A stretch of 64,000 bases of DNA from Lentinula raphanica (Eukaryota; Basidiomycota; Agaricomycetes; Agaricales; Omphalotaceae), in assembly GCA_027919835.1 (NCBI GenBank), contig JANVFP010000048.1, forward strand, positions 186,001-250,000, read 5' to 3'. Both the position numbers and the translations under genes were made by a program. The number at the start of each line of letters is the position of its first letter. Position 1 is the stretch's first letter. The notes beneath the pieces were generated by a model. The model had not been told where the DNA came from and ran no database searches. It was given only the letters and a program-made list of their open reading frames with translations. Positions 22,419 to 61,644 of this stretch are shown piece by piece.

Positions 22419-22498
22419 TATGAAAAATGAAAATTATATTGGCATTTGGAGCAGACATCACAAATGGCTACTAGTGCCCGGCTAAATTATATAGCCGG

Positions 22499-22591
22499 CC
22501 TCTGCCTTTTGCACTCAGGTGGGACAGGAAGTTAAAGTTAGCCAACACTGGGCCAGAGCCCATAACATTCAAAGCGGATCATGGAGGGCTA
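22499..22591. repeat. 93-bp direct repeat, copy 1
   Basis: Identical to 23790-23882 in the same orientation. Starts CCTCTGCCTTTTGCACTCAG and ends CATGGAGGGCTA. Confidence 0.95.
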
Positions 22592-23789
22592 CATAATGGT
22601 ACAGGATAGGTAAGGGTGTAGCTACATACAACTACATATTTACAAACAATGAGAACATACATGATATGAGGGAGAGGAGGGAGGGTGAAGGAAAAACAGG
22701 CAGATCAAGGTTAGATCTATGTAGATAAGAGTCAGTACTATGTAGAAGCTTATCAGACATGATCAGAGCGCACTGAGACACCAAAAACCCAAGATCTAAC
22801 AAAGGAATCAACTCCTAGAGTGTCTGATCACCTTAGATCTGTCTGGATGTGCTTTGGTATCTGTTCAGTGTCTTGATGGTGAAAAATGCGAAATTTCATA
22901 CCAGATTCCTGTATCTGAGACACCTCTGGAAGGCCTGTAGTCTGTACAGATGTAGGAATGTACTGGACAGTGAAATCAGAGCTCAGAAAGAGCTAGGGAA
23001 CATGCAGGCAGCCTCACCCAGGTCAGAGATGGTGGGGGAAGGAAAGGAAGAATGGGAGATCAAAAATTGATGTTTCAACTCGCTTTTACAGGCCTCTGCT
23101 CAGACCTCTGGCACCTGTAACAGCCACATCAATTTAAAACAGCCCCATGATCAATTGCCTGATGCATGTGAAGATGGGATCATGTACAGCTATCAGCTGA
23201 TGATCCAGGCGCCCTATAAGCGCTGGAAATGTCCGAAATATGTCCAGGAATCCATGTGATGAGTCTAGGCATGGTGCTAAGTGATATAGAGGCTCTGGGA
23301 ATGAAATAACGCACAAGTGTTTTGAGTGTGCATTTTAAAATGAGGATTGCAGGAGAACCACTAGACCAAATGCCTTCAAAATTATTTGCATCTTGAAGAG
23401 GACATCAAACTGTATATTTCCATCTAAGACACCTATAGGTTTGATCCAGGAATGCTTTGTGTAGAATAGAAAATATTTCAAAAGCTTTATTAAAGCATTC
23501 TGAAAAAATATGAATAACTCGACACAGAGTGAGTATCATCATAGGGTTATAGTGGACAACTTGTAGGGACAATAGAGCTCTGTATGCGTACACAGTATAG
23601 TGGCAAGAGCACTTGAGAGGTAGCCAGCAATTAAGTGTATTCATGTACACATTAGGTATGATGAAGGTGAAGACCTTCATGTACATACCTGTTGTGATGA
23701 ATAGTGCACTATAATTACTGGGAGATGATCTGTTGTTTGCAGAGGCCTGCAGAAAGGCTCCCTACCCTTGGAATCCGCCTTCATGTCGA
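22592..23789. other. Non-coding spacer between the 93-bp repeats
   Basis: About 1.2 kb, AT-rich, frames under 100 codons only. In a split-direct-repeat element this would be the A2 segment; I could not match it to anything at the 5' end. Confidence 0.4.
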
Positions 23790-23882
23790 CCTCTGCCTTT
23801 TGCACTCAGGTGGGACAGGAAGTTAAAGTTAGCCAACACTGGGCCAGAGCCCATAACATTCAAAGCGGATCATGGAGGGCTA
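23790..23882. repeat. 93-bp direct repeat, copy 2
   Basis: Identical to 22499-22591. It lies about 120 nt behind the recombinase stop codon. Confidence 0.95.
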
Positions 23883-24000
23883 TAATTGCTATGAAATGTT
23901 GTTGAGGGGTGGATGGTGGTGAAAGAAAATGTGAATGAGACGCGAGGTAAATGGTTGTATATCAGATAGGATGATGTTACAAAAGTACTATAGTACAGTT

Positions 24001-25008
24001 TCAAGATTTTTGGGCTTGTTTGAGAGAAGCTAGCTGTAATTCTGCCCTTACTGTAGGATTGTCTCTGATATATATTTTCCAAGCTGAAGAAGACCAACGT
24101 CCTAAAGCCATTATCACAGATTCTGAAAGTCCAAGTCTAGCATAAAAAGTTGCACCACCAGCTCTTAGTGAATGTCCACCAAACTCCCTACCAACATAAG
24201 CAAAGAACCTGGATTCAAACCAGGATCTAGTGGGGAGTGTCCCATCTTCACAGAGGAACAATGCAGGCCTGGCTCCATGTAGTTTGTCTCTGATAGCACA
24301 GTATTCCTTCAGTAGAGACACAGGACTAGCCACTGCTTGATGACTTTGGAGAATATCTGTTCCATGATAGAAAGGATCACTTTTGTGATAAGGCAAATGA
24401 TAACCAGCTCTGCCATTCTCAAACTTGAGAGAAGCACGCTTGATCACCTTACGCCAGTCACGCAAGTCATACTGATTAGGAACAGTGAGTTCACCAATGC
24501 GGTGACAACCATAGAAGCCACAACTCAATAGAGTAGCAAACAGAAGATCATCATAGGAGAGATGACGAGAGTCATAGAAGAGTTGGATATGAGAAATTTG
24601 AAGAGGAGGCTTCCTCTTGACTGGGTCAGCTCTAACTTTCTTGGAGCCTCTGATTGTAGCTTGAACCAGAGGATGAGCACGAGATTCATCAAAGTGAGGA
24701 TAGAGTTGTTTGAGAAAGTGACGAGCACCAGAGAGATATTTGGGTCCAGAGGCAATATGTCTGGATGTGTAGGCAATGTATCTGGAGAGTGTGGATGGGG
24801 TGGGATCCAGATCCAGATTATGAGAGGTGCAGAACCTGATATAATCTTTAGCACCTGTAGTATAGTTCTGTTTGGTAGACTTCTCAATGGCATGGGCTTG
24901 AAGGAATAACACCAAATCATCTAACTTGTTCAAGTCCATAGGAGGGTGAGCAGAGTGACCTTGTCTCTTCCTCTGCTCACCCATGGCCTCTAAAAGGACT
25001 CTCTCCAT
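24001..25008 (-). CDS. Tyrosine recombinase of the DIRS-type element
   Basis: 335 residues. The N-terminal half resembles a SAM-like core-binding domain (STKQNYTTGAKDYIRFC). The catalytic half shows the family residues: Arg170 in CHRIGEL, His279-x-x-Arg282 in GGHSLRAGG, Trp305/Trp310 in GRWSSSAW and the nucleophile Tyr313 in WKIYIRDNP. It would join a circular cDNA intermediate to the target without duplication. The start ATG overlaps the end of the RT frame by 19 nt in another frame. The frame has no lesion, so the enzyme could be active. Confidence 0.92.
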   Translation of the reverse strand: MERVLLEAMGEQRKRQGHSAHPPMDLNKLDDLVLFLQAHAIEKSTKQNYTTGAKDYIRFCTSHNLDLDPTPSTLSRYIAYTSRHIASGPKYLSGARHFLKQLYPHFDESRAHPLVQATIRGSKKVRADPVKRKPPLQISHIQLFYDSRHLSYDDLLFATLLSCGFYGCHRIGELTVPNQYDLRDWRKVIKRASLKFENGRAGYHLPYHKSDPFYHGTDILQSHQAVASPVSLLKEYCAIRDKLHGARPALFLCEDGTLPTRSWFESRFFAYVGREFGGHSLRAGGATFYARLGLSESVIMALGRWSSSAWKIYIRDNPTVRAELQLASLKQAQKS

Positions 25009-26960
25009 CGCGCCGGCAGTAGCTCTCTTGGAGGCTCAAAAGTGCGGACGCGGTAGGAGGGAAACTGGAGCTTGAAGTCATCCAGTAGAAGTCTAGACAG
25101 AAGATCTGCCTTAATATTGTCTTTGCCAGGAATATGACGAACTCTGATGTCAATACCAGTTTTGAGAACTATACCTGCAATAGCAAGGAGGATGGAGTTA
25201 TGTGATGATTCTTTGACTGCAAGAGAACTGAGAACTTGGACAGAGTCCAAACTATCAGAGAAGAATAGGACTCTCTTGGGTGGACTAGGCTTGGAAGCAA
25301 TGTGATGTAGGCCAGATAAAATAGCTAGCAGCTCTCTGAAGAAGATGTCTACAATGGGGCTGCCAGGAGTTGGATGCACCTGATAACAAAAGCCATTACT
25401 GGCATAGACAAAGGATAGGCCTATGTTGCTTGCATCAGTCCAGCTTACAAAGTCTGCTTCACTATCACTCCATGCTTGGGCATCTACAAATCGTATCCCA
25501 ATGGCAGACTTGAGCATATCAGAGAACCAGGTCAGGTCTCTATGCACTTCACCATTGATAGGGATGTGACGAAATTGAAGTGTCTTCCCACTCATTTTGC
25601 GATACATTTCTGTAAGAGCAGGTCTAGCCCATGGAAGAACATTAAGTGACCAGTTTAGAGAACCTGTTAGATGCTGCCAGTCTCTGAGTGCAGCTTTGCG
25701 ATTGGGAGATGAGAGGAATGTATGAATAGCTTCTACAAGTCCATCTATGGATTCCTGAGTCAAAGAGAAAGAGCCTTTCATGATATCTGTTAAGAAGCCT
25801 ATGATCAAAAGCCAGACTCCCCAGTCTTGTTTTCTATCTTCATAAGGGCAATCAATCATGTCCCAAAAGACTAGAAGCTGTACTTGTCTCTTGGGATATT
25901 TCTTGCCATGAAAGGTGATTAGATTCCTCTTGAAGTCCCAGCCAAAGAAGTCATCCATGTAAACATGTAGATTAGGGATTCCTAGCTTCTCAGTCCCAAA
26001 CCAACAGAGCAGTGCAGACACAGAGCACCAACAGCGAGGAGAGGTTCTAGTCCCAAAGACCAGTCTCCTAACAATGTGAAATCTTCCATCAACAGAAACA
26101 ACTTGACAAAGTTGCCAGAGAGGATGAGCAGGGAGATTGAGGAAGGCTTTAGCCACATCACTCTTGAATAGCACAAGCTCCTCATTAGGGTGCTCTTTGA
26201 TAACATCATTGAGCACCTGACCAAAGGTGTGCATATCATCATATTTCACTTTGGCCTCCTCTCTAGGAATACCATCATTGAGACCTGATGCAGTTTGATC
26301 CATGACAACTCTAGCTTTCCCCTTCTGCCAGACTACAAACATAGGGGAAACTTTCATGCCAGGCAATAGTACAAAATCTTCTGGTAGTGCTTCTGACCAC
26401 CTTCCAGCAGCTACCTCCTGATCTCTGTGAGCTCTAAGTGCTGCAATGTCTACTGGTTCAGTCACATAGTTATCAACTTTTTGTCTGCATTCCTCTTCCC
26501 ACTCTGCTTCATAGAAAGGCCAGAACCCTTCTCTCAATGAATGAATAACAGAAGCAACAAAAGGTTGGTTAGGATGAGAAGATAAGAGGAGTTCCAAACG
26601 ATCCACATTGAATGGAGTTTCAACTTTGATGTAACCAGACATAGATTGTAGAGTAGCAAAAATTTGGGGATTATTCAAGAGATGTTCAGGAGGTGAAGGT
26701 AGAGGAGGTGCAGTCATAGTAGATGTGATACTGGGAGGAATGATGTTACAAGAAGAACTAGTAGAAGACCATAAATAACCACGTCTAAAACGTGGATTAG
26801 AAGTAGATTCAGATGTATCCAATAAATGCTTTGTACCAGCCAGAGATTTAGGCCCTTGAAGAGCGCTTTCTACTCTCTCTGCGACGCTTCTGGAGCTGGT
26901 CATAGCAGGACTGATTGTCAATGGCTCTGTGCTGTTCTCCACACTCACTGCAGTAGCCAT
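24990..26960 (-). CDS. Reverse transcriptase-RNase H of the DIRS-type element
   Basis: 656 residues from the ATG at 26960; the frame is open further up but only as a shadow of gag. The polymerase shows KARVVMDQT, LFKSDVAKAFLNLP and the catalytic YMDDFFG near residue 335. An RNase H domain follows with WTDASNIG, the RELLAILSGL helix, FFSDSLDSVQVL and RHIPGKDNIKADLLSR. No integrase or protease is seen, as expected for DIRS elements. It starts inside the last 113 nt of gag in a different frame, so it needs frameshifting, re-initiation or a separate transcript. Confidence 0.92.
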   Translation of the reverse strand: MATAVSVENSTEPLTISPAMTSSRSVAERVESALQGPKSLAGTKHLLDTSESTSNPRFRRGYLWSSTSSSCNIIPPSITSTMTAPPLPSPPEHLLNNPQIFATLQSMSGYIKVETPFNVDRLELLLSSHPNQPFVASVIHSLREGFWPFYEAEWEEECRQKVDNYVTEPVDIAALRAHRDQEVAAGRWSEALPEDFVLLPGMKVSPMFVVWQKGKARVVMDQTASGLNDGIPREEAKVKYDDMHTFGQVLNDVIKEHPNEELVLFKSDVAKAFLNLPAHPLWQLCQVVSVDGRFHIVRRLVFGTRTSPRCWCSVSALLCWFGTEKLGIPNLHVYMDDFFGWDFKRNLITFHGKKYPKRQVQLLVFWDMIDCPYEDRKQDWGVWLLIIGFLTDIMKGSFSLTQESIDGLVEAIHTFLSSPNRKAALRDWQHLTGSLNWSLNVLPWARPALTEMYRKMSGKTLQFRHIPINGEVHRDLTWFSDMLKSAIGIRFVDAQAWSDSEADFVSWTDASNIGLSFVYASNGFCYQVHPTPGSPIVDIFFRELLAILSGLHHIASKPSPPKRVLFFSDSLDSVQVLSSLAVKESSHNSILLAIAGIVLKTGIDIRVRHIPGKDNIKADLLSRLLLDDFKLQFPSYRVRTFEPPRELLPARWRESF

Positions 26961-28167
26961 GCTTCCTGTTATTAGGACAGGGCTCTGAACACCTCTTCTC
27001 ATTCCAAAGAATGCAAGGTGTGTCACGACGCTTTGAGCTGGATGAGGAAGAAGATTGGCTACCACCAGAAGGCCTCTTTCTAGCAGATAACAACTCTTTG
27101 AGAAGAAGAGTGTGGAAGCTCTCTGGATTGCCCAGGTCAAATGGAGTGTTGGCAGCTTTCTGCCTAGCTTCTTTATCAACCCTGATAGCCACAGATGGAT
27201 CATAAGGTGAGGATCTGAAATACTCCATAATTTGTGCTTTGTATGTCTCTAGCTCATCTTTGCGATGTGGATAAACCTTGAGCAAAGGAGCAGTCCATGC
27301 ATCAAAAACTCGGAGCCATTGAGACTCAGAAGTGACAGGCATAGACTTGAGAACTTGATCCTTACGAACCAGCTTGTATTCTGACCCAAAATCTCTGCTA
27401 TCATCATAGGTAGATGAGGAAAAGCTGACCAGTGCAGCATAGACTTTATCAAAGTCCACGAAGCGATCCTTGACAATGAGGCGAAGCAAAGAGACAGGGA
27501 GAGGATCAGAGAAAGGTTGAGCAGCAAGTAGAGATACAACTGGGTCAAGATTGCTTTCAGCAGCAAAGAGGTTCTTGAGTTCCCAAGTTTTCTGCACATG
27601 AGCAGGAAGAGATGAGGGGCCTGATAGATGTGCCAAGTGAGGAGCAGCTTCAAGAAGTGCAGCAGGAAGGACTGAAGCAGTTGAAGCAGGTTTGACAGGA
27701 GAGGCAAGAAGTCTAGCCAAGGCATCTCTCCCAGCCTGTAGAATAGGCTCTGGATCTTGAGGAGAAGCACCAGATTCAAGCTGGGCTTGCTCATCATCCA
27801 GATCCTGAATCTGAGTCTGCATGCTAGCCCAGGCAGCTTCATTGACAGCTTCTTCATGAGAGACATCATTCTGATCTGCTGAGACAGCAGTCTTCTTCCC
27901 TTTGAGCTTAGCTCTCTGATCTCTCTTAAACTTATTAGTCTCTCTCTGGATATCCATGATCTGAGACACATAGTCTTGGGATATAACAGCATCATTGAAA
28001 GAGAGATCTCTAACAGCCCTAAAGGCATCCATAGCATTGATCTCCTCATTTCTGAACTGTTCAACAACCTCCTGAAGAGCCCTGGCTTGTTCACCAACTG
28101 TCTCAAACTCCAGAGCCTGCACAGGGTCATCAGAGAGCCTGTCAGCAAGGGAGAGAGAGGGTGACAA
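26848..28167 (-). CDS. Gag-like protein of the DIRS-type element
   Basis: About 439 residues. The middle is helical and charged; the C-terminus has a Ser run, then CILWNEKRCSEPCPNNRKHG and a following CSECGEQH, a Cys/His cluster typical of the nucleic-acid-binding end of these gag proteins, and a basic tail. The first codon given here is TTG; the frame stays open upstream to about 28267 with no ATG, so the start is lost, spliced in or non-canonical. A long frame of 347 codons on the same strand (28292-27249) is its Leu-rich shadow. Confidence 0.8.
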   Translation of the reverse strand: MSPSLSLADRLSDDPVQALEFETVGEQARALQEVVEQFRNEEINAMDAFRAVRDLSFNDAVISQDYVSQIMDIQRETNKFKRDQRAKLKGKKTAVSADQNDVSHEEAVNEAAWASMQTQIQDLDDEQAQLESGASPQDPEPILQAGRDALARLLASPVKPASTASVLPAALLEAAPHLAHLSGPSSLPAHVQKTWELKNLFAAESNLDPVVSLLAAQPFSDPLPVSLLRLIVKDRFVDFDKVYAALVSFSSSTYDDSRDFGSEYKLVRKDQVLKSMPVTSESQWLRVFDAWTAPLLKVYPHRKDELETYKAQIMEYFRSSPYDPSVAIRVDKEARQKAANTPFDLGNPESFHTLLLKELLSARKRPSGGSQSSSSSSSKRRDTPCILWNEKRCSEPCPNNRKHGYCSECGEQHRAIDNQSCYDQLQKRRRESRKRSSRA

Positions 28168-28292
28168 GTGAGGAGCAGCAGAGGAGGATGGAACATTCTG
28201 GGAGTGAGGAGAAACAGACCTGAAGTGAACATGGGTTTCAGACTGCCTAGAGGAGCTAGAGGTGCCCTATATATATTACCCCCCGTATCCAC

Positions 28293-29085
28293 ATGTGGTT
28301 ACGATGTTAAGCCATGTTGCGTTTAAGGAATTCAGGTTCACAAAACGCATTTCAGGGCTCAGCAGATGCTATAAAATGGAGCAGATTGGTAGATATTGCC
28401 CTGATTTTTGATGCAAAATGAACATAATGTTAAGCATGTTAAGCCTATGTTAACATAAGGTGAACATCTATGTTAAGCCATGTTAAGCCATGTTAACCTC
28501 ATGTTAACCTCATGTTAAGCCATGTTAACCTCATGTTAACCTCATGTTAAGCTTATATTTAGCTTATGCTAAGCATATTAACATCCAGTGAACCTCCACA
28601 TTATTAATATTAAGCCATGTTAAGCCCATGTTAAGCATGTTAACATCAAGTGAACCTCTATATTAATGATGTTAAGCTCATGTTAAGCCATATCAAGCAC
28701 AGGTTAATTTATAAACTCACATGTTAAGCCATGGTCAACCTATGTTAAGCATGTTAACATCAACTGAACTCCTATGTAAAGCTCATGTTAAGTGTGTTAA
28801 GCCATATTAAGCTCATATTAACCATGCTAATATTAATTTTCAACCATGTTAAGCCATGCTCAGCTATGTGAACATCAACTGAATCTATATGTTAATCTAT
28901 GTTAAGCAAGTGAATATTTATATCAATTATGTTGAATTTCTATGAACCATGTTAATTCAAGTGAACCTCTATATTAACATTATATTAAGCTCTTGTAAAC
29001 CATGTCAATAACAAGCAAGCTTCCATATCAAGATTGTTAAGTCTATGTTAACTTCAAGTGGATATCATTCAAGCTTATATTATGC
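28293..29085. repeat. ATGTTAA-rich degenerate array
   Basis: About 800 nt in which ATGTTAA occurs more than twenty times, nearly always in the same orientation, in variants such as CATGTTAAGC and CATGTTAACCTC, mixed with decayed forms (ATATTAAG, GTGAACCTC). Very AT-rich and non-coding. It lies immediately upstream of the retroelement on the element's strand and just past the 3' end of the helicase fragment. Confidence 0.85.
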
Positions 29086-29198: not shown

Positions 29199-30335
29199 CT
29201 ATTTACTGGAGCGAAGAAGGTCTAAATACCAAGTAACAAGTCGCACAAAGTTGGAAACAAATCTAGGATGAGCAGGATCTTCTGGTGTAGCTAGGGGTCT
29301 TGCAACAAGCCATGTCCATTCATTTCCTTGAGTTAAGCCCACTTCTTTATAGACTCTTTGCATCAATGCTTTATCTGCATTGATACGCAACCACAAACCA
29401 AGCATGAAATCCAAATGTTCACATAAATTACGTTCCTTGCTGAATTCCTCATGGACCAAGTCTCCAGGTAGTTGAGGCAAATGGCAGTGGAAACAGATGG
29501 AACCCCAGTTTTTCTTCTCTTCTTTAGAGGGAAAGGGATAATGCTTGAGGTTCATTTTCATCAACTTGACTGTAAGTTTTCCAGTTTTAGGACATTGCTC
29601 CAGGGGATGCCAAGAAGTATTGCACAAAGTACAAAGACCTTTGAACAGATCAAATCCAAACTGGAAGATGTTGGCAATAGGCTGAATCCATGCAGTTCTC
29701 TTTTGGCGATATTCCTCAGCTGCGTTTACTGCAGCTCCAAAGTCTGAACGTCGAGTTATTGCAATACTGCCAATGACTTCGAGCCGCTTTGCTGAAGGAA
29801 TAGTCTGTGATATAGGAGGACGAATCCAGGGAGGAATAACTCTTCCTTCCAATGCTATGCAACTACTGCATTTGGCACCCAGCCCATCATTGCTATCTTT
29901 ACAAAGAACTCCAGCATCATCACACCACTTTGTGAATTGGAATCGTAGACATTGGATGGGTGCATTATTGCAAAGTGCAATAATCTGATTATTACCAGCA
30001 TAATCAGGAATTCCATAGCTGTGATACTTTGCTTTGGCATTTTGGGTAGGCAGAATATAGCAATGGGAGAGGACATGATCTCGACCAGCACGTGTAATTC
30101 CTTGAAATGTTCCAGTCATATCACCAGGAGTGCCGGCAAAGATGACTGTGCGAACATGAGGATAATCGTTGCCAGCGTAAAGAGCAGAAGTTCCAACTAT
30201 AATCTTGGAAATTCCAGCAATCCAGTTGTCGTAGATGAGGTTCCGATTTGGTGTAACTTCTTTGTCACCACTATAGAGTGTAGTATCAAAGCGAGTTGCG
30301 ATATCGATGCCTATATATATGGGCCTGGGAATTTA
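29199..30335 (-). pseudogene. RecQ-like helicase, 3' fragment
   Basis: An open frame of about 375 codons. It starts inside helicase lobe 2: IIVGTSALYAGNDYPHVRTVIF corresponds to motif V, and FQGITRAGRDHV matches the QxxGRxGRD-type motif VI of RecQ-like enzymes. A Cys/His-containing C-terminal region follows (CSSCIALEG, CTLCNTSWHPLEQCP, CFHCH). The Walker A and DEAH motifs are absent: upstream of about 30335 the sequence is unrelated. Either the 5' part was lost or it lies in exons I cannot see. Such RecQ-like genes are common in mobile and subtelomeric DNA of basidiomycetes. The remaining frame is undamaged. Confidence 0.7.
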
Positions 30336-31671: not shown

Positions 31672-33049
31672 ATGAGCTCTAAAGAAGATATGCAAACAGT
31701 CTCCCATCTTGCTCGTGAAATTTATACTTCTGTCGCTGCTATTCATCCTCCATCCCCAAATGCCTCTCAAGAAACTCGGGAAACATTCAACAGTATGCTT
31801 CGTACTGCTCAACAAGCATCTGGGCAGATCCTCAGTCTTGTCATCGGTATGGCCCAATCAACTACGGATTCCAATGGTCAATCTCTTGACCTTCACCTTG
31901 GCAATGGACACTGGGGTATGTACTCTCACGCCATATATATACAGCCTGTCCTTGTGTTAAATCATACTGCTAGATGACCTTCTCCTGGATGAAGACCCTG
32001 GATTAGCTTCCTCCACTGATAATGACAACGACCCTCCCCCTGACATCAATGATCAAATCCAAGCCGATATTGAAGAACTCCTTGCAGAAGCAAATGATCC
32101 TGAGCTTTGGTTTAGCCTCCAAGATTTCCGTACCATGGTAGAACAAGGCGAACACAGGGGTTCTACTATTCAAAAGGAGAAGGAAGCCTTTCGACGGATG
32201 CTTATTGGTTACCGCCAAGTTCCATTAGATGACATTGTATGTCCAATCACTTTTTAATATGTGACAGATAACCTATCAACCTTTTCTAGGTCCAAGCTTT
32301 TGATCTCCATGACCTTCAACTTGCATCAGTTTCAATCCAACGCCATACCCAACACATTTCCACATTCCACAATCTTCCTCTCCGTGACCAGCGACTGTTT
32401 GAGCGTGAAAAGCTCTTATACAACCCATCTAGCTCTCACTGTGTCCATGCCTGGATCAATGTAGTCATCAACAATATCGAAGCCATTGAGTTTGTCAAGG
32501 ACTGGGCTGGTGAAGCTGGTGAATGGCGAAAGGACTTTCGAAAAACACTGGCCACCCACTTTTATGCAAGTGAACTCAGCTTGATTGATCGAAGCCTCTT
32601 CCCAAGCACCAAGAAAGACAAACTCTGCAATAGACTTTACCGACGGTTTGCAAAAAAACATGACAAAGTTATTGTCCGGCGGCGCCATCTTCATCGTTTC
32701 TTTGAACTAGTATGTCCCATTCATTCTCTATACACTTATGTACTTAGGTACCACTCAGTTTGGCCCCACTGTACTTCTGGACCCCACCTGGCTTACACTT
32801 ACCAAACAAGGTTATCCTCGCCAATCCAAGCTTTGGTACGACCGTGTCCGTTCCGAGGTACTCGACTTTGGTTTACAAGATGAAGACATTGGGCGAGCCC
32901 GATACTGGAATCACCGCCGCTTCCTACTCTCTGTTGTTGAATGTCTGGGTGGCAGAACAGTCAAGGCCTATGTTGAAGACTTTCTGGACCAAAACTTGAC
33001 CTGGAATCCCCCACCTGAACCAGTAGACGATGATGACAATGACGACTAG
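31672..33049 (+). CDS. Unrecognised 405-residue protein, convergent partner of the dioxygenase gene
   Basis: Four exons: 31672-31915, 31974-32236, 32290-32709 and 32759-33049; GT-AG introns, one frame. The protein is soluble, with an acidic stretch (STDNDNDPPPDIND) in its N-terminal third, a central basic/helical region (KKDKLCNRLYRRFAKKHDK) and an acidic C-terminus (DDDDNDD). I see no catalytic motif I can name. Its stop codon is 9 bp from the stop of the convergent dioxygenase gene, and both have the same splice style, so the two probably travelled together. A helper or DNA-binding role is only a guess. Confidence 0.75.
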
Positions 33050-33058
33050 ATTCGTACC

Positions 33059-36000
33059 CTACTTGTAAATAGCATAGTAAGACTTCCGGCCCAACCTCTT
33101 TGGTGATGTTTTACACAGCCAATGTTCTACATCAATCATATCAATGGATGCACCCTTCTTCCCCCTCTTCTGATCCCATTTGCATCTCAGTTTACCTAAA
33201 ACCTGTTCAAATGCCACCTCTACATCACTAGCATCCTGTTTACCCTTCTTTTTCTTCAAATAGCCCAACCTAACCAACCCTTTCACTGCTCCAGCATCTA
33301 CCCATATCAAGGTTTCTGCAAATTCCTTCAATGTTGCTTCAAAAGCCCCTGCCCTCATATAGTCCACTGCAATCTGAAAAGCTGTTAGCTTCCCAATGCC
33401 ATAAAATCCTTTACCAGACAGAACTTTGACTACAGAAAGTAGAAAATTCTCCTGTGCATTAAATCCATCTGGATTCAACAGCCACTGGTTGTATTCCTGA
33501 TCATTGGCACTGGCCCAGTAGCCCTCCGCATTTTTGGGATCCCGGGAAGGACCACAGTGTTGTCCATATGCAGCTGGATCACAAAAATATTTTTTATCAT
33601 CAGGATGCTCCTCTTTAGCCTTCTCATATACTCCTTCCCAATCTTTATAGTCTTTGTAGAATGGTGTATGATCCAAGAGAAACTGGGTCCCATGATGGAT
33701 GCTTCGGACCATGAGTGCAGAGAAGAAACCAGATGTGGTTCGGAGATTCTTGGGTGTGTAGGGATTTTTGTTGGAATGAAGGACATGGAATCGAGATTCG
33801 CCTAGTTCCCGAAATGGAAGACGCTGGTTGGAATTTTGAGCAATCTCGCTGAGGTATTCAAATATCCTTTGTTCCCTTCCTGCTGCAGATTTTCGAGGTG
33901 GGTCAGGGAGAGTCGCCACATGAGAGAGATCATCTCCAGTGAGCTGTAAGCACAGATACACTTGGTCTACAAGATCATCCAGCTGCCATTCCAGCAGATT
34001 GTCTTCACTATCCACATCCATATCCAGATGAGTTTCGAGTGAGACTGATTGAGTGGGAAAGGAAGATGACAATGTTCCTGGACCAGACAGTACTGCTTCA
34101 GAAGATTCCAGCACAGAATGGTCATTTTCAGTATCCATATCCATGGGATCAGGAGTAAGGGGTGAGAGTGATGGATTTGGGAACAAAGATGGCACAGAAT
34201 CTGGAGCAAAAGATTCTGCTATGAGTGGTGTGGGAATAGAGCCTGGGTCAGGGAGAAGTTGCTGGACCATAGAATAGTCTCCAAAAGTCAAGGTACCTGA
34301 CTTGAGAGCTTGGGTGAAAACCAAGAAGCGCTCCTTCTCCTCTGTTGTTCGAACATCCCAGCACGCATTGTGCAGGTCTGTACAGATACCTATAATTTCA
34401 CCCATATTCACCTCTTGCTGTATCTTCCCTACAGCCATGCGAACCTCCTCAAATGTCCCCTTCTGTCCATGCTGCTTTTCCAGTATCCAGTGCACTATAC
34501 TTTGCGCAGCCTTCCATACCTTGTATACTGACAGCACTCCTGGGCCAAGCCATTGTTCCATGAGAGCAATGAACAATGCAGACAACACATCATTTCCCTC
34601 CTTTCCCATCTGAGCCAGACCAGTCCACTTCACCACCCACTCCTCTGCTTTATTGACTGCATATCCAACTGAGTCTCCATTCCTTTGGCTCCTTCCCACC
34701 TTCAGTTTGAATATATCTCCGTTCCTGATTGGTAGAGTGGTCGGGGAAAGATAGGTTGTGGGGTGAAACTCTGCATCCTGAGCCTGCACTGTCATCCAGG
34801 AGTATATATCCCATGCAAGACGCTCAAACCAGTGCAATTTCCCCTTGTCCAAATGCAGATTTCTATCGAGCTTCTCCCAAGCCTTTGCTTTCCACGTTCC
34901 CAGCTGCCCCCAAATAGCAGCCCGAAGTAACAAGAGATCCTGTCGCAGGATGGTTGATTGCAAATTTGAGCGACTGAATTTGGTCGAAAGAGTGCTATAG
35001 TAGCCAATGAGATCCTCCAAGCTCTCACCCAGTTTTGGAAGAGGATCTTCCAGTTGATACTGCACCATAGCAAAAGTACGTTCATCCAGCTCGGCCTGAA
35101 GCACATCCTTCGTTAAATGCTTTGCAAACTTTGTCGAAGGAGCATGCTGTTGCTCCCCTGAACCCAAAGGCTCCGAGTCCACTGTAACTCCTAGCACAGC
35201 ACTGTCCACCACATCTTGGACAGGTATCTCTTTAAACACATCATTCAGTCAACTGCAAACAAAATTTTTCAATATGACTCCCACCTTTCTCCTCTTCTGT
35301 CTTTATTACGGATGTTTTTTTATCTTCCCCCACCGACTTTTCTTCTGTTCTTTCTATAATTGATTTCAGCTCCAGCCCTTTACCTATCAACTTGTATAAC
35401 TCACCCTCGATATCTTTATTTTCTGACTCCCCTTTGCCCAAATATCAGAGCTCAACAGTAAAACAAGGTCAACAAAGCTCACCCCCTCTGTTATCAATCA
35501 CACCACCCTCACAGTCTATAACTATCTCAGTTCCTCATCATTCTCAGTTACTGAAACAATATACCTTGCTTTATATCCTTCTTCTCTTTTATCTCCTTCT
35601 TCTTATTTACTTTATTTTTGTTGTTCTTCTCTGCAAAAAAACTTCAGTCTTTGATGAGCACACTATTCATCCTTAACTCACCCTTTCCCTTTCCCTTTCC
35701 CTTCCTCTTCTCTCCTTTCTTGTTTGGAGCTAGAGGGTCCCTCTCCGGATTTTTTCTGGCAGTCCGGGTAGCTTCAAAACACATAGTCAGTTATGCCTCC
35801 ATATTTAACACTGATTCACTCACCACTATCCCTGATAATCCTCCGGTGACTACTGTGCTGATTTGTGTCTACCTGTTCTGCTTCTCCAGTTGCATGACAG
35901 ATTGGGATGCTACTCATCATCATCCTCCTGTGCTCTTCCCATTCTTCCCTTTGGGTAGCAATCCAAGTATTTCCATAAATAGTGTCCGACTTGCTGTCTG

Positions 36001-38257
36001 TATTCCAAAGTTGCCTCAACTCCTCCTCAGACAACTTTGAAAAGTCTTCTGCATACTTCTTCCCAACCCGTGTATCTTCACCTGTCCACCCTGGCCCTCT
36101 CTCCCATGGACTGGCCTCAATTCTCTCCTGTCCACTCCGCATGGTAAACGAGGAAAGAAATCGCCCTGTGTCTATACGCAACAGCCCCTCACGGGGTGCT
36201 TGACGGGCCATATAGAGCATGAACATGAGCATATTTCTGGAAAAGTGGTCGAGATAGGACTGGTCATCCATCACTCCAAGGCCATCAGCTATATAGTTGG
36301 CATAAGCAGATATCCCATTGGTATCGTATGCATGGGAGCTAACTCAGTTTTAGCCAACAATAGATGAAAAAAATCATTGCACATACTCAAAATCCCTCAT
36401 CTCCTTGTTCAATGTCAGCAACCCTCCCATGGTATCCTTAGGGATAAAACCCAAGGCTACTTGTGAGTCTCCTTCGATTTCATGTGCTGAAGGGTACATG
36501 ATAAGAGTGCTTCGAGTATAGACCATCTCTTGGGGATCAAAAGTTGCCTTGGGTACAGCTGCAGCACCACTGTGATAGTGAAGCCCTGAGAAATAGATAG
36601 TAGCAAATTCTTCTAGTTCCCAGCTGAGCCCAAGGTCGAATATAGTGAAATATTCAGCCTCTATATGCTGATTTCCTCTTGTAAGCACTTTCATTGCTGT
36701 TGGTATTCCCTCATGGTCTCCTCCATCCAGATGGGGACCTCCAAACTGCCCAATGTCTGCAATCTTTCTAGCTAAATAATACTTCAACTTCTTTTCTAAA
36801 AGCAACAATGAAATTTATACCTGACTCTCCTGACCCCTCTTTCTTGTGCCTCCTCCTCAGTTGAATACCCCCTGGAGTTGGATCAGAGTAATATCTTGTA
36901 AATATTTATAAACACTTACCATCTTCTACCTCTTTTTCATCATTCATACTAGCCACATTGAGCTGTGCACTAGTCCAATATTTGTTCTTGATAGACCCAA
37001 TTCGAGGACAGTTGGTCATCTCTGCCTGGCGATCCATTTTCTCCTTCAACCTCGAGTCCACCTTGCTCAGACCAATGACATTAGCCTCAGCTACCACCTA
37101 GAACTTTGTGATTATCATGATGGCCAGAAATCTTTGATTCACATACTGCCAGGATTTCTCTCTGCAACTCCTCACCCTCACACATCATTATCCCACTTCT
37201 CTTGCTATTACTTGCAGGCCCCTCCAGGTCTCTTTGACTTTGGTTGGACACCCCCATGGCATAGGCCCTCTTGGCTCCTTTGATTGGCTTCAGGGCTTTC
37301 ATCCTCTCGATTTCTATGCCTCCTGGCCCATTGTATTCCCTCTCTTTTGGTCCATACATTCTGTCTCTCCCCTCTGACATTCTTTTGAGCAGGTCCTCAG
37401 GGTGCTCCGATCTGACAATTGATTAGAATAATGACCACATCAATCATTCAGTCACTCACAGAGCCATTGCCCAGGTTTTAACTAAATCATCCTTTTCTTC
37501 TCCTGTCCCAAACTGATCTCTCCATGCCACATAGACATTATCACTTGGTTTAGCAACCAAAAATCCTAATCATGTCTTGTCATTTTGAGAATCATCTCAG
37601 CAGCCAACCTACACACCTTTTGCTAATATATCTTTTCTTGATCCCAATGTCTCTCTTTGGTTGGCAAAAACCTGGTGCCTCCTCAGCATGGCTTCCCTCC
37701 CCCAGTCCAACACTATGATATATATTATGCCGGGGTCCTTGTCTTCAATCAGCACATGTGTCTTCTTTCCACTCTCATATACTCTGCCAAATATATCCTC
37801 ATCTCTTCCTTCTAGTCCCAAGTAGAAATGTGCACTCATATCTACTTCCAGCTCTTTTTTCTTCCCTCTCTTTATTTCTGATAAACACTGAGTTTTCATT
37901 CTTTCTCAGCCAATCTTGCTCACCTTCAGTTCCTTCTTCCTTCTTAGTTGACACATGAACTAGATCCCCTTTGTCTTCTGTCAATAAAATTTTGCAGGAG
38001 TTTTCTTCTTCTTCAATCAAGCTTGCTCACCTTGAATATTCTCTTCCTCATCACTTGAAGTTTTCAAATATTTATCTTTATATATCCACACTTTAATTCA
38101 CTTTTTCCACCCAAAAAATCTGGTCACTTACTTTTTCCCACTTCCTTTAGCCTCTTGGACTGCCTTAGAGGCACAGGAGATGCAGGTCTTTTACCTATCA
38201 AATATACAGTTAACAAGATGTATGTTTTAGAGGAATCACATTACCTTTTCTCAACAT
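33059..38257 (-). CDS. TET/JBP-like dioxygenase fused to a 5-hmdU-kinase-type helical domain
   Basis: Fourteen exons starting at 38257, 38194, 38025, 37877, 37565, 37411, 37097, 36795, 36338, 35771, 35630, 35521, 35431 and 35229, stop at 33059, give 1474 residues; every join is in phase. A basic N-terminus (KRPASPVPLRQSKRLKE) precedes a region with VYVAWRDQFGTGEEKDDLV and KYWTSAQLNV. A 2-oxoglutarate/Fe(II) oxygenase core follows at about 330-470: metal ligands H351-x-D353 (GGPHLDGGDH) and a distal His in FSGLHYHSGAA (402/404), with YTRSTLIMYP as a possible 2-oxoglutarate Arg. This pattern resembles fungal TET/JBP enzymes, which oxidise 5-methylcytosine or thymine in DNA. A Lys-rich linker in small exons leads to a large C-terminal part. 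Its last ~110 residues (GKLTAFQIAVDY, DAGAVKGLVRLG, MIDVEHWLCKT) resemble the helical domain of phage and fungal 5-hmdU DNA kinases. Exons 3 and 13 use weak acceptors; two genes rather than one remain possible. Confidence 0.72.
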
Positions 38258-38568: not shown

Positions 38569-38642
38569 TAGACGCCCAGCCAAACATGTACATACGGGAG
38601 GCCCACAATTTCGGACCTTTTGTATGTACATGTTTGGCTGCC
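38569..38642. repeat. Short hairpin element, copy 1
   Basis: CAGCCAAACATGTACATAC and GTATGTACATGTTTGGCTG pair perfectly across a ~26-nt loop. The flank TATAGACGCC and both arms recur at 45219-45290, so this is a dispersed fold-back element. Confidence 0.85.
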
Positions 38643-60175: not shown

Positions 60176-61644
60176 TTAGCTTTGAGTGAAACAACAAATT
60201 CTACCTTGTGTACTCACATCGCCCCCTCGTCCTCTACATGCACCACTCCTGGTGGTACCACAGAGTGTAAGTGATTGTGTACAGATGACTACACTTCCAA
60301 CCCTCATATTGAGGAGGAGTGTCTTGAGTTTTTCCGTTACTTGTAGATATCAGCATGAAACTCCATACCCATGATTTCAAACATGACTTACACTCGCCAC
60401 CGAACAGTTTATTATTGACCAATACCACATCTGCCTGCTTCAAGACCTCCACCGCTCGAGCACTTGCACACATATCCCCATTCTCAAACTCTATCTCCCC
60501 TGGAGTGACCCCCACAAATGAAGATCGCATTTTGAACTCTTGAATGAAGAGCTGGCCAAGATCTGCCACCTCCTTACGGATCTCAATACCATATGCAAAG
60601 CATCCAATTTTGAATGCTGCTTCCACCAATGTATTCCCAATACCACTCCCCAGATCCACAAATGTAGAGTGCTTTGCGAGCCTAGTCCCAGCAAATATGA
60701 ACTCCAACATGGGACTCAATAGCTCACCATATGTCTCCTCTTCCTTTTTTTTACCCCGTGCAACAAGCCTCTGGAGCTGAGGCTTAATCGAACGCCCATA
60801 AGAAGCCTGAAACACAACCTCGAACAGAGCTTTGCTTCTGAGACGGGGTGCCCAGATCATTATTTTGTTCACGCTCTCAAAAGCTTCACAGAACTGCCCA
60901 AAGTTTTTCTGCCGGAGCCCACTTTTGATATTCACCCAGTGGGTCTACAAACAGTGTCAGCAAGATCGGATGTATGTTCCAGGCACCCACATGAAGAGGA
61001 TTATCCTTGTTGGCCCCTGCAACTACTATTGATAGTAATCATCAGCATCTGCTCATGCAGGCTTAAATACAGACTTGCCTGATACAAAATGGCTCACTGT
61101 ATCCATCAAATCCTGCACTGGATCATAATCGATCCCTCTGGTGGGTTGACATATCAAAAATCTACTCACCCACTGTCAGGAGATACCCGTACATCTACAA
61201 TCACACTTACGATTCTGAGGCCACATTTCCTGGGTAGTGCAAAGTAATTTCAGGAAATGGATAGGGAGAACCCTTTGAGGTTGTATCAGGAAACACTATT
61301 TGAATGATAATCAGTGACAGTATCATCAAGAACATTCAACGCTTACCCGAGCTATATTTTGCTAGCTGCTTCAATATAATTTTTGTTGAAGAGATAAAGA
61401 AGGAAGCTTGGAATTCCTTTGTTTCATAGCTATTTTTGTTGAGATCTGGATGCAGTTCGTACACTGTTGATGGGCCAATGACATTGAAATGTACAATGGA
61501 AGGGGAAGCATAAGTTGTGGTGGGAGGCATGGTGCATGGAGCAGACCCAAATACGAGCTGGTTGCCTCTGAACTTTTTGTTTCTTGGTTTTTGGGAAGGA
61601 GGAGTCGTTCCTTGCTTCAGTGCAGCGTTATCTCTGCAATTCAT
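60176..61644 (-). CDS. Dot1-like histone methyltransferase domain protein
   Basis: Six exons: 61644-61347, 61295-61211, 61137-61079, 61025-60991, 60944-60392 and 60339-60176; 397 residues, all in phase. One intron (61078-61026) has a GC donor (gcaagt). The methyltransferase core shows YGRSIKPQL, TYGELLSPMLEFIFAGTRL, the SAM-binding FVDLGSGIGNTLVEAAFKIG at about 254-273, GIEIRKEVADLGQ and QADVVLVNNKLF, as in Dot1, which methylates Lys79 of histone H3. The N-terminal 250 residues are unrelated to Dot1 as far as I can see. Compared with the usual Dot1 signature the NNFAF segment is NNKLF. The first exon is uncertain: the ATG at 61644 is the first in frame, but a spliced 5' exon could exist. The gene looks intact among damaged neighbours. 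Confidence 0.8.

Follow-up and report, generated by a model that had tools for sequence, protein, structure and literature searches.

Phages hypermodify their DNA through oxidised pyrimidines, as is well established, and kinetoplastids do so with base J; no fungal equivalent was found in the literature searched. The locus described here lies in a 64,000-nucleotide stretch of a Lentinula raphanica contig (the window) and contains gene A (33059..38257, minus strand), whose product very probably joins a TET/JBP-like dioxygenase to a C-terminal domain related to the HMUDK_hel family (PF18723). A paper describing such a fusion was not found in the literature searched, and an earlier prediction of it may still exist.

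The nearest solved structures are those of the TET/JBP dioxygenases CMD1, NgTET1, TET2, and CcTET. They share with gene A the core fold predicted for a relative, the HxD...H pattern, and a candidate 2-oxoglutarate arginine, whereas gene A has no PF12851 match, shows 8–11% identity in structural alignments, and carries additional middle and C-terminal domains. The transposon-borne fungal TET/JBP types PU, AG, and PE (Kojima 2025; PMC12730594) are likewise multi-copy oxygenase genes of Agaricales genomes. According to the accessible part of that paper, the hallmark of type PE is HxE, in contrast to the HxD of gene A, and type AG is, by our reading, what PF12851 finds in the Lentinula genome. The same part describes TET/JBP transposons as encoding no additional protein for further modification, whereas gene A has a putative second base-handling domain fused to the oxygenase (PMC12730594).

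Gene A as a single coding unit

Gene A runs from position 38257 to 33059 in 14 exons that join in phase, with no internal stop, into 1425 residues, and all 13 introns are of the GT-AG type. One joined gene of 14 exons had been proposed in the original prediction and was confirmed here, while its length of 1474 residues was revised; the C-terminal motifs GKLTAFQIAVDY, DAGAVKGLVRLG, and MIDVEHWLCKT reported there were all found in the protein. Exon 2 (38132..38194) encodes a basic N-terminus (GKRPASPVPLRQSKRLKE), by eye a possible nuclear localisation signal. Exons 4–6 (37147..37877) are conserved and precede the oxygenase core, and their equivalent in the relative P0012 lies within the stretch that aligned to TET/JBP structures. 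The core with an extension (residues 299–621) is encoded by the end of exon 7 and exons 8–9 (35824..36965), followed by a basic, poorly conserved linker with uncertain boundaries (exons 10–13, 35285..35771). The first part of exon 14 (33983..35229) encodes a middle region of moderate conservation that belongs to no Pfam family, and the remainder (33059..33982) the C-terminal domain (residues 1119–1425). All these parts are on the minus strand, and exons 1–3 and 10–13 are the least certain part of the model.

Relatives of the C-terminal exon were located at five loci of the genome, including that of the window, and at four of the five the oxygenase exon and the C-terminal exon were on one strand and in the same order. 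The copy at C32:425–434 kb was broken by stops and insertions, the oxygenase match of the copy at C46:44 kb crossed one TGA, and the locus at C46:22–24 kb held a relative of the C-terminal exon without the oxygenase core exon. Exons 3, 11, and 13 were unmatched at any of three paralogue loci, including the C32 paralogue; exons 1 and 12 fell below the length needed for this comparison.

When the window copy was compared with the copy at C32:329–333 kb, the ratio of nonsynonymous to synonymous substitution rates (dN/dS) was 0.155 for the whole gene (1289 codons, dS ~1), with values of 0.09 for the oxygenase exons (305 codons), 0.27 for the middle region (260 codons), and 0.14 for the C-terminal domain (293 codons). 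The counts exclude stop codons and gapped positions. The C-terminal domain gave 0.25 against the locus L032. The synonymous sites of L033 were saturated and gave no overall ratio, and the short-linker value of 0.064, at a dS of 4.2, is not usable.

The NCBI protein P0001 (1342 residues, source name Lentinula raphanica) was 98% identical to residues 200–1425 of gene A. Of the 17 database relatives, seven had both motif sets on a single chain; they come from Lentinula, Marasmius crinis-equi, and Galerina marginata, so that relatives with the same domain order, to which the original prediction had looked for a check, exist in three genera. Because the genomic copies keep the order, dN/dS is low, and relatives carry both motif sets, gene A is considered one real gene. 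Judged from these comparisons, it is a single in-phase coding unit under purifying selection, and the fusion of the oxygenase with the C-terminal domain is very probably real.

Two side observations concern the N-terminal end. The model of P0011 (Lentinula boryana, 1900 residues) joins a long N-terminal protein, JmjC according to UniRef, to the oxygenase, possibly through a gene-model fusion. An inverted repeat of 28 bp (86%) with an 8 bp loop is located at 38577–38640 of the window, ~320 bases upstream of the gene A start.

The oxygenase half and the C-terminal domain

The iron site of the oxygenase half is formed by the HxD motif H335, L336, and D337 (36725..36733, minus strand) and by H386-Y-H388 (36572..36580, minus strand), in which H388 is the invariant distal histidine. 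The invariant R408 (36512..36514, minus strand) is a candidate anchor of 2-oxoglutarate. The HxD at 351/353 and the distal histidine at 402/404 of the original numbering correspond to H335/D337 and H386/H388, with a shift of 16. These H, D, H, and R residues were invariant in the ten rows of alignment A6, and the aspartate was kept in 11 of the 12 rows of alignment A9, where P0015 reads HNN. The fold comparison was made with the predicted model of the close relative P0012 alone. Its double-stranded β-helix core was nearest to TET/JBP structures; the best 16 rows of the structural search were all TET/JBP, at least 1.4 Z units above FTO, and FTO and AlkB-type enzymes came after them. Foldseek with the P0003 model gave no significant match in the PDB or BFVD. 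PDB sequence searches gave no match with alignment A8 and only chance-looking ones with the window oxygenase exon, A9, and A2.

The C-terminal domain was compared with HMUDK_hel at the profile level, with a control, and homology was found with the conserved motifs in register. The global alignment over 240 columns gave 89.8%. The domain resembles the phage and fungal members in its second half, where FPxxGkxxAYqxxxD...GxGAxxGL...DVEHxLCe is in register, VEHWLCK (residues 1403–1409; 33110..33130, minus strand) corresponding to the DVEHTLCE-type motif of the family, but it differs from them in its sub-cut-off score, in a first half that is unmatched locally, and in its fusion to an oxygenase. 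The local PF18723 match covers positions 168–268 of 281 and is firm for the second half only. Further scans with PF18723 gave 19.4–21.6 bits for the window copy and two paralogues, and 20.1 bits for P0013. The HMUDK_hel-type domain of the original prediction is therefore retained by its profile homology and motifs, and qualified by the score and the first half; remote homology to HMUDK_hel is considered very probable at the profile level. A tblastn search of the domain against phages gave no match (best E 9), and the phage link therefore rests on profiles, via the canonical fungal HMUDK_hel copy. Searches of PHROGs and NCBIfam yielded no useful match for this domain.

In the structural comparison, the C-terminal domain matched best with 3n0u, an 8-oxoguanine DNA glycosylase from Thermotoga, which we take to belong to the HhH-GPD superfamily. 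The segment GIGKLTAF (residues 1313–1320; 33377..33400, minus strand) resembles a helix-hairpin-helix motif. The predicted structure makes a glycosylase-like fold probable. The glycosylase match and the GIGKLTAF segment would suit a single-polypeptide demethylase, in which the oxygenase oxidises 5-methylcytosine and the glycosylase-like domain excises the product. In contrast to the HhH-GPD glycosylases, however, the putative catalytic Lys and Asp positions appear not to be kept in the gene A family, as judged by eye. In the ten C-terminal rows of alignment A3, which does not contain P0003, the putative EndoIII-type Lys position was Leu in all ten, and the putative catalytic Asp position was Asp in the window copy and P0001, which are the same gene, Asn in seven rows, and Gly in one. 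Five HMUDK_hel relatives had Gly at this position, by eye. Such a demethylase is thus quite unlikely.

The original prediction had described the helical domain as one carried by kinases. A gene for thymidylate synthase lies close to the HMUDK_hel gene in phages PaMx11, Ab19, and LuckyBarnes. The PaMx11 neighbourhood also includes an ADDT and a P-loop gene, and in LuckyBarnes two glycosyltransferases adjoin the HMUDK_hel gene. No such modification genes were seen within 4–5 kb of the HMUDK_hel copies of the Nodularia and Dickeya phages. The Dickeya phage Ds9CZ has the 5-hydroxymethyldeoxyuridine kinase (PF18748) and ADDT as separate genes at other places in its genome, and the P-loop kinase of PaMx11, below its family cut-off, was also a separate gene. 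HMUDK_hel is therefore placed in phage modification gene sets and is not the kinase itself. The P-loop pattern [AG]x4GK[ST] occurred in neither the window protein nor 16 of its 17 relatives; the remaining one, P0013, has a chance-looking GKKKPGKS. By these motifs the gene A protein is not a kinase, and that element of the original prediction was dropped.

The canonical HMUDK_hel gene of the genome (L036 3243–4853; C4:919 kb) encodes the helical domain and then a chromo domain (325 and 49 bits), in contrast to the oxygenase fusion of gene A. This arrangement suggests a chromatin role for the HMUDK_hel family in fungi.

Proposed function and competing readings

The gene A protein may be one chain with two base-handling modules, a DNA-base oxidase and a remote HMUDK_hel reader or processor, a reading to which we give an even chance. 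The N-terminal half, a putative Fe(II)/2-oxoglutarate dioxygenase of TET/JBP-like type, would most likely flip a base out of duplex DNA and then oxidise the methyl group of 5-methylcytosine or thymine. The most likely role of the C-terminal 300 residues would be to bind the same base, or its oxidised form, and flip it, and this binding would either hold the enzyme on modified DNA, as a reader or targeting module, or act on the product. We infer DNA as the substrate, the identity of the base, and the role of the C-terminal domain. Oxidation of a DNA base by the protein is likely. Recognition or targeting is the likeliest specific role of the C-terminal domain, at roughly balanced odds, and further chemistry by it is possible but rather doubtful. 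The same doubt applies to a two-step enzyme in one chain, in which the oxidised base would be handed to a repurposed glycosylase-fold domain of HMUDK_hel type and there modified or excised.

Several results weigh against this reading of the protein. PF18723 scored 18.2 bits (E 0.0017) against the window protein, below the Pfam cut-off of 25 bits. The PF12851 profile gave 28 matches genome-wide (five over the cut-off), none of them in C48; the 12-member alignment A9 matched no oxygenase family at E<=10; and the hhalign comparison with four Tet_JBP proteins of the same genome failed (0.5%). The confidence of the P0012 model, as the predicted local distance difference test (pLDDT), was moderate to low, with values below 50 in the HxD stretch. 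Ten of the 17 relatives lacked one or both motif sets (C-terminal motifs only in three, oxygenase motifs only in six, neither in one), and several of these ten look like fragments or truncated models.

The profile results make the oxygenase TET/JBP-like by structure only, so that the original assignment of a TET/JBP-like oxidase stands by predicted fold and iron-site residues and fails by PF12851 and profile comparison. The pLDDT of the HxD stretch lowers the estimate for the fold slightly, and a TET/JBP-like fold remains quite probable. An oxygenase acting on RNA or protein, with the C-terminal domain as a general nucleic-acid binder, would agree with the missing recognition by TET/JBP sequence profiles and with FTO and AlkB-type enzymes standing next in the structural list. 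It is nevertheless unlikely, given the gap between the 16 best TET/JBP rows and FTO and a partner domain related to phage DNA-modification proteins.

The relatives with a single motif set, together with the short, basic, and weakly conserved exons 10–13, could be explained by a gene-prediction error that merged an oxygenase gene with an adjacent gene for a C-terminal helical protein. This is improbable in view of the kept exon phase, the seven database models from three genera with both sets, and the constant strand and order at four of five loci.

The C-terminal domain could instead add a group chemically to the hydroxymethyl base that the oxygenase produces, which would make the protein a fused writer and hypermodifier; relatives of the domain occur in phage DNA-modification gene sets, and the fusion is kept across three genera. 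The phage kinase and ADDT are encoded separately, however, and the literature searched, as far as its text was accessible, reports no activity of HMUDK_hel itself. The mushroom genome gave no matches to PF18748 (kinase) or PF18724 (amino acid:DNA transferase), where an intron-split gene could escape, although PF18724 matched two of two phage control records and PF18748 two of three, of which one was over the cut-off. DNA_methylase gave three matches in the genome. A full phage-like pathway is therefore not visible in it, and such a hypermodifier appears a weak candidate.

For the two-module reading, the single conserved gene, the TET/JBP-like fold, and the HMUDK_hel homology of the original interpretation hold, whereas the kinase and the PF12851 assignment do not, and its coupling of oxidation to hypermodification was a conjecture for which the two partner families were unmatched in the genome.

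Gene B, the duplicated block, and significance

Gene B (31672..33049, plus strand; exons 31672–31915, 31974–32236, 32290–32709, and 32759–33049; 405 residues) is the convergent neighbour of gene A, tail to tail with it at a distance of 9 bases. Its three main frames matched no Pfam family over its cut-off. Gene B was kept beside gene A at C46:25 kb, C46:48 kb, and C32:435 kb; the locus at C32:333 kb retains no more than the end of gene B. It also has distant relatives with no detected gene A relative, at C44:324 kb, C4:22 kb, C51:172 kb, and C48:268 kb, and all four lie within ~33 kb of a contig end.

C46 and C32 share a 7.6 kb block that contains genes A and B, has sharp ends, and is ~93–97% identical between them. 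Genes A and B were therefore copied together as one unit. The left end of the block in C46 has a perfect 38 bp palindrome, GCTTAGTCAGGAGACG...CGTCTCCTGACTAAGC (C46:42514–42551), absent from the C32 flank. The right half of the palindrome and the following bases recur at C46:34.3 kb, and the left 31–38 bp of the block match a palindromic repeat near that position; blastn found these 31–38 bp neither in the window nor in the vicinity of the C32:330 kb and C46:22 kb copies.

Genes A and B might form or belong to a mobile unit, in which the oxidase shields the unit from methylation-based silencing. This reading, modelled on the proposal for transposon-borne TET/JBP genes and compatible with the two-module protein, would fit the presence of five loci in a single genome, of which one is broken, and the sharp-ended block, and transposon-borne TET/JBP genes are described in the accessible part of PMC12730594. 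Among the KDZ transposase matches listed (of 158), however, none was on C46 or C32 and the nearest on C48 was ~128 kb away, other transposase families not having been searched. An exact-word search of the C46 block ends gave no terminal inverted repeat >7 bp and no direct repeat >5 bp, and the gene A copies end at differing points. Selfish cargo is accordingly a tentative reading.

Other features lie near these genes. At 22495–28298 of the window (minus strand), open reading frames resemble, by eye, an Ngaro/DIRS-like retroelement with a tyrosine recombinase (Pfam gives hints only, E 0.03–0.05), and pieces 81–97% identical to it lie within and next to the broken gene A copy in C32. At 29199–30332 (minus strand) the C-terminal part of a RecQ-like helicase was recognised by eye (Helicase_C, 23.4 bits against a cut-off of 23.5), and another helicase (L053 430–1917) and the gene B relative at C48:268 kb are 6–8 kb apart. 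Frames with HRD...H at L052 2208–3100 (C44:329 kb, minus strand), 2-oxoglutarate-oxygenase-like by eye and without a Pfam match at E<=0.1, are convergent with a gene B relative 3–4 kb away. A DOT1 histone methylation domain (E 8.3e-29) is encoded at 60234–60944 (minus strand).

Gene A presents a conserved fusion of a TET-like oxidase and an HMUDK_hel relative as a single expressible protein, whose chemistry is directly testable by liquid chromatography–mass spectrometry. The oxygenase suggests that TET/JBP-like enzymes in fungi hide beyond the reach of current profile models, and the joining of the two parts in one mushroom protein suggests a fungal DNA-modifying protein. A two-step single-chain enzyme, if true, would be an undescribed fungal system of DNA hypermodification or of demethylation by one protein.

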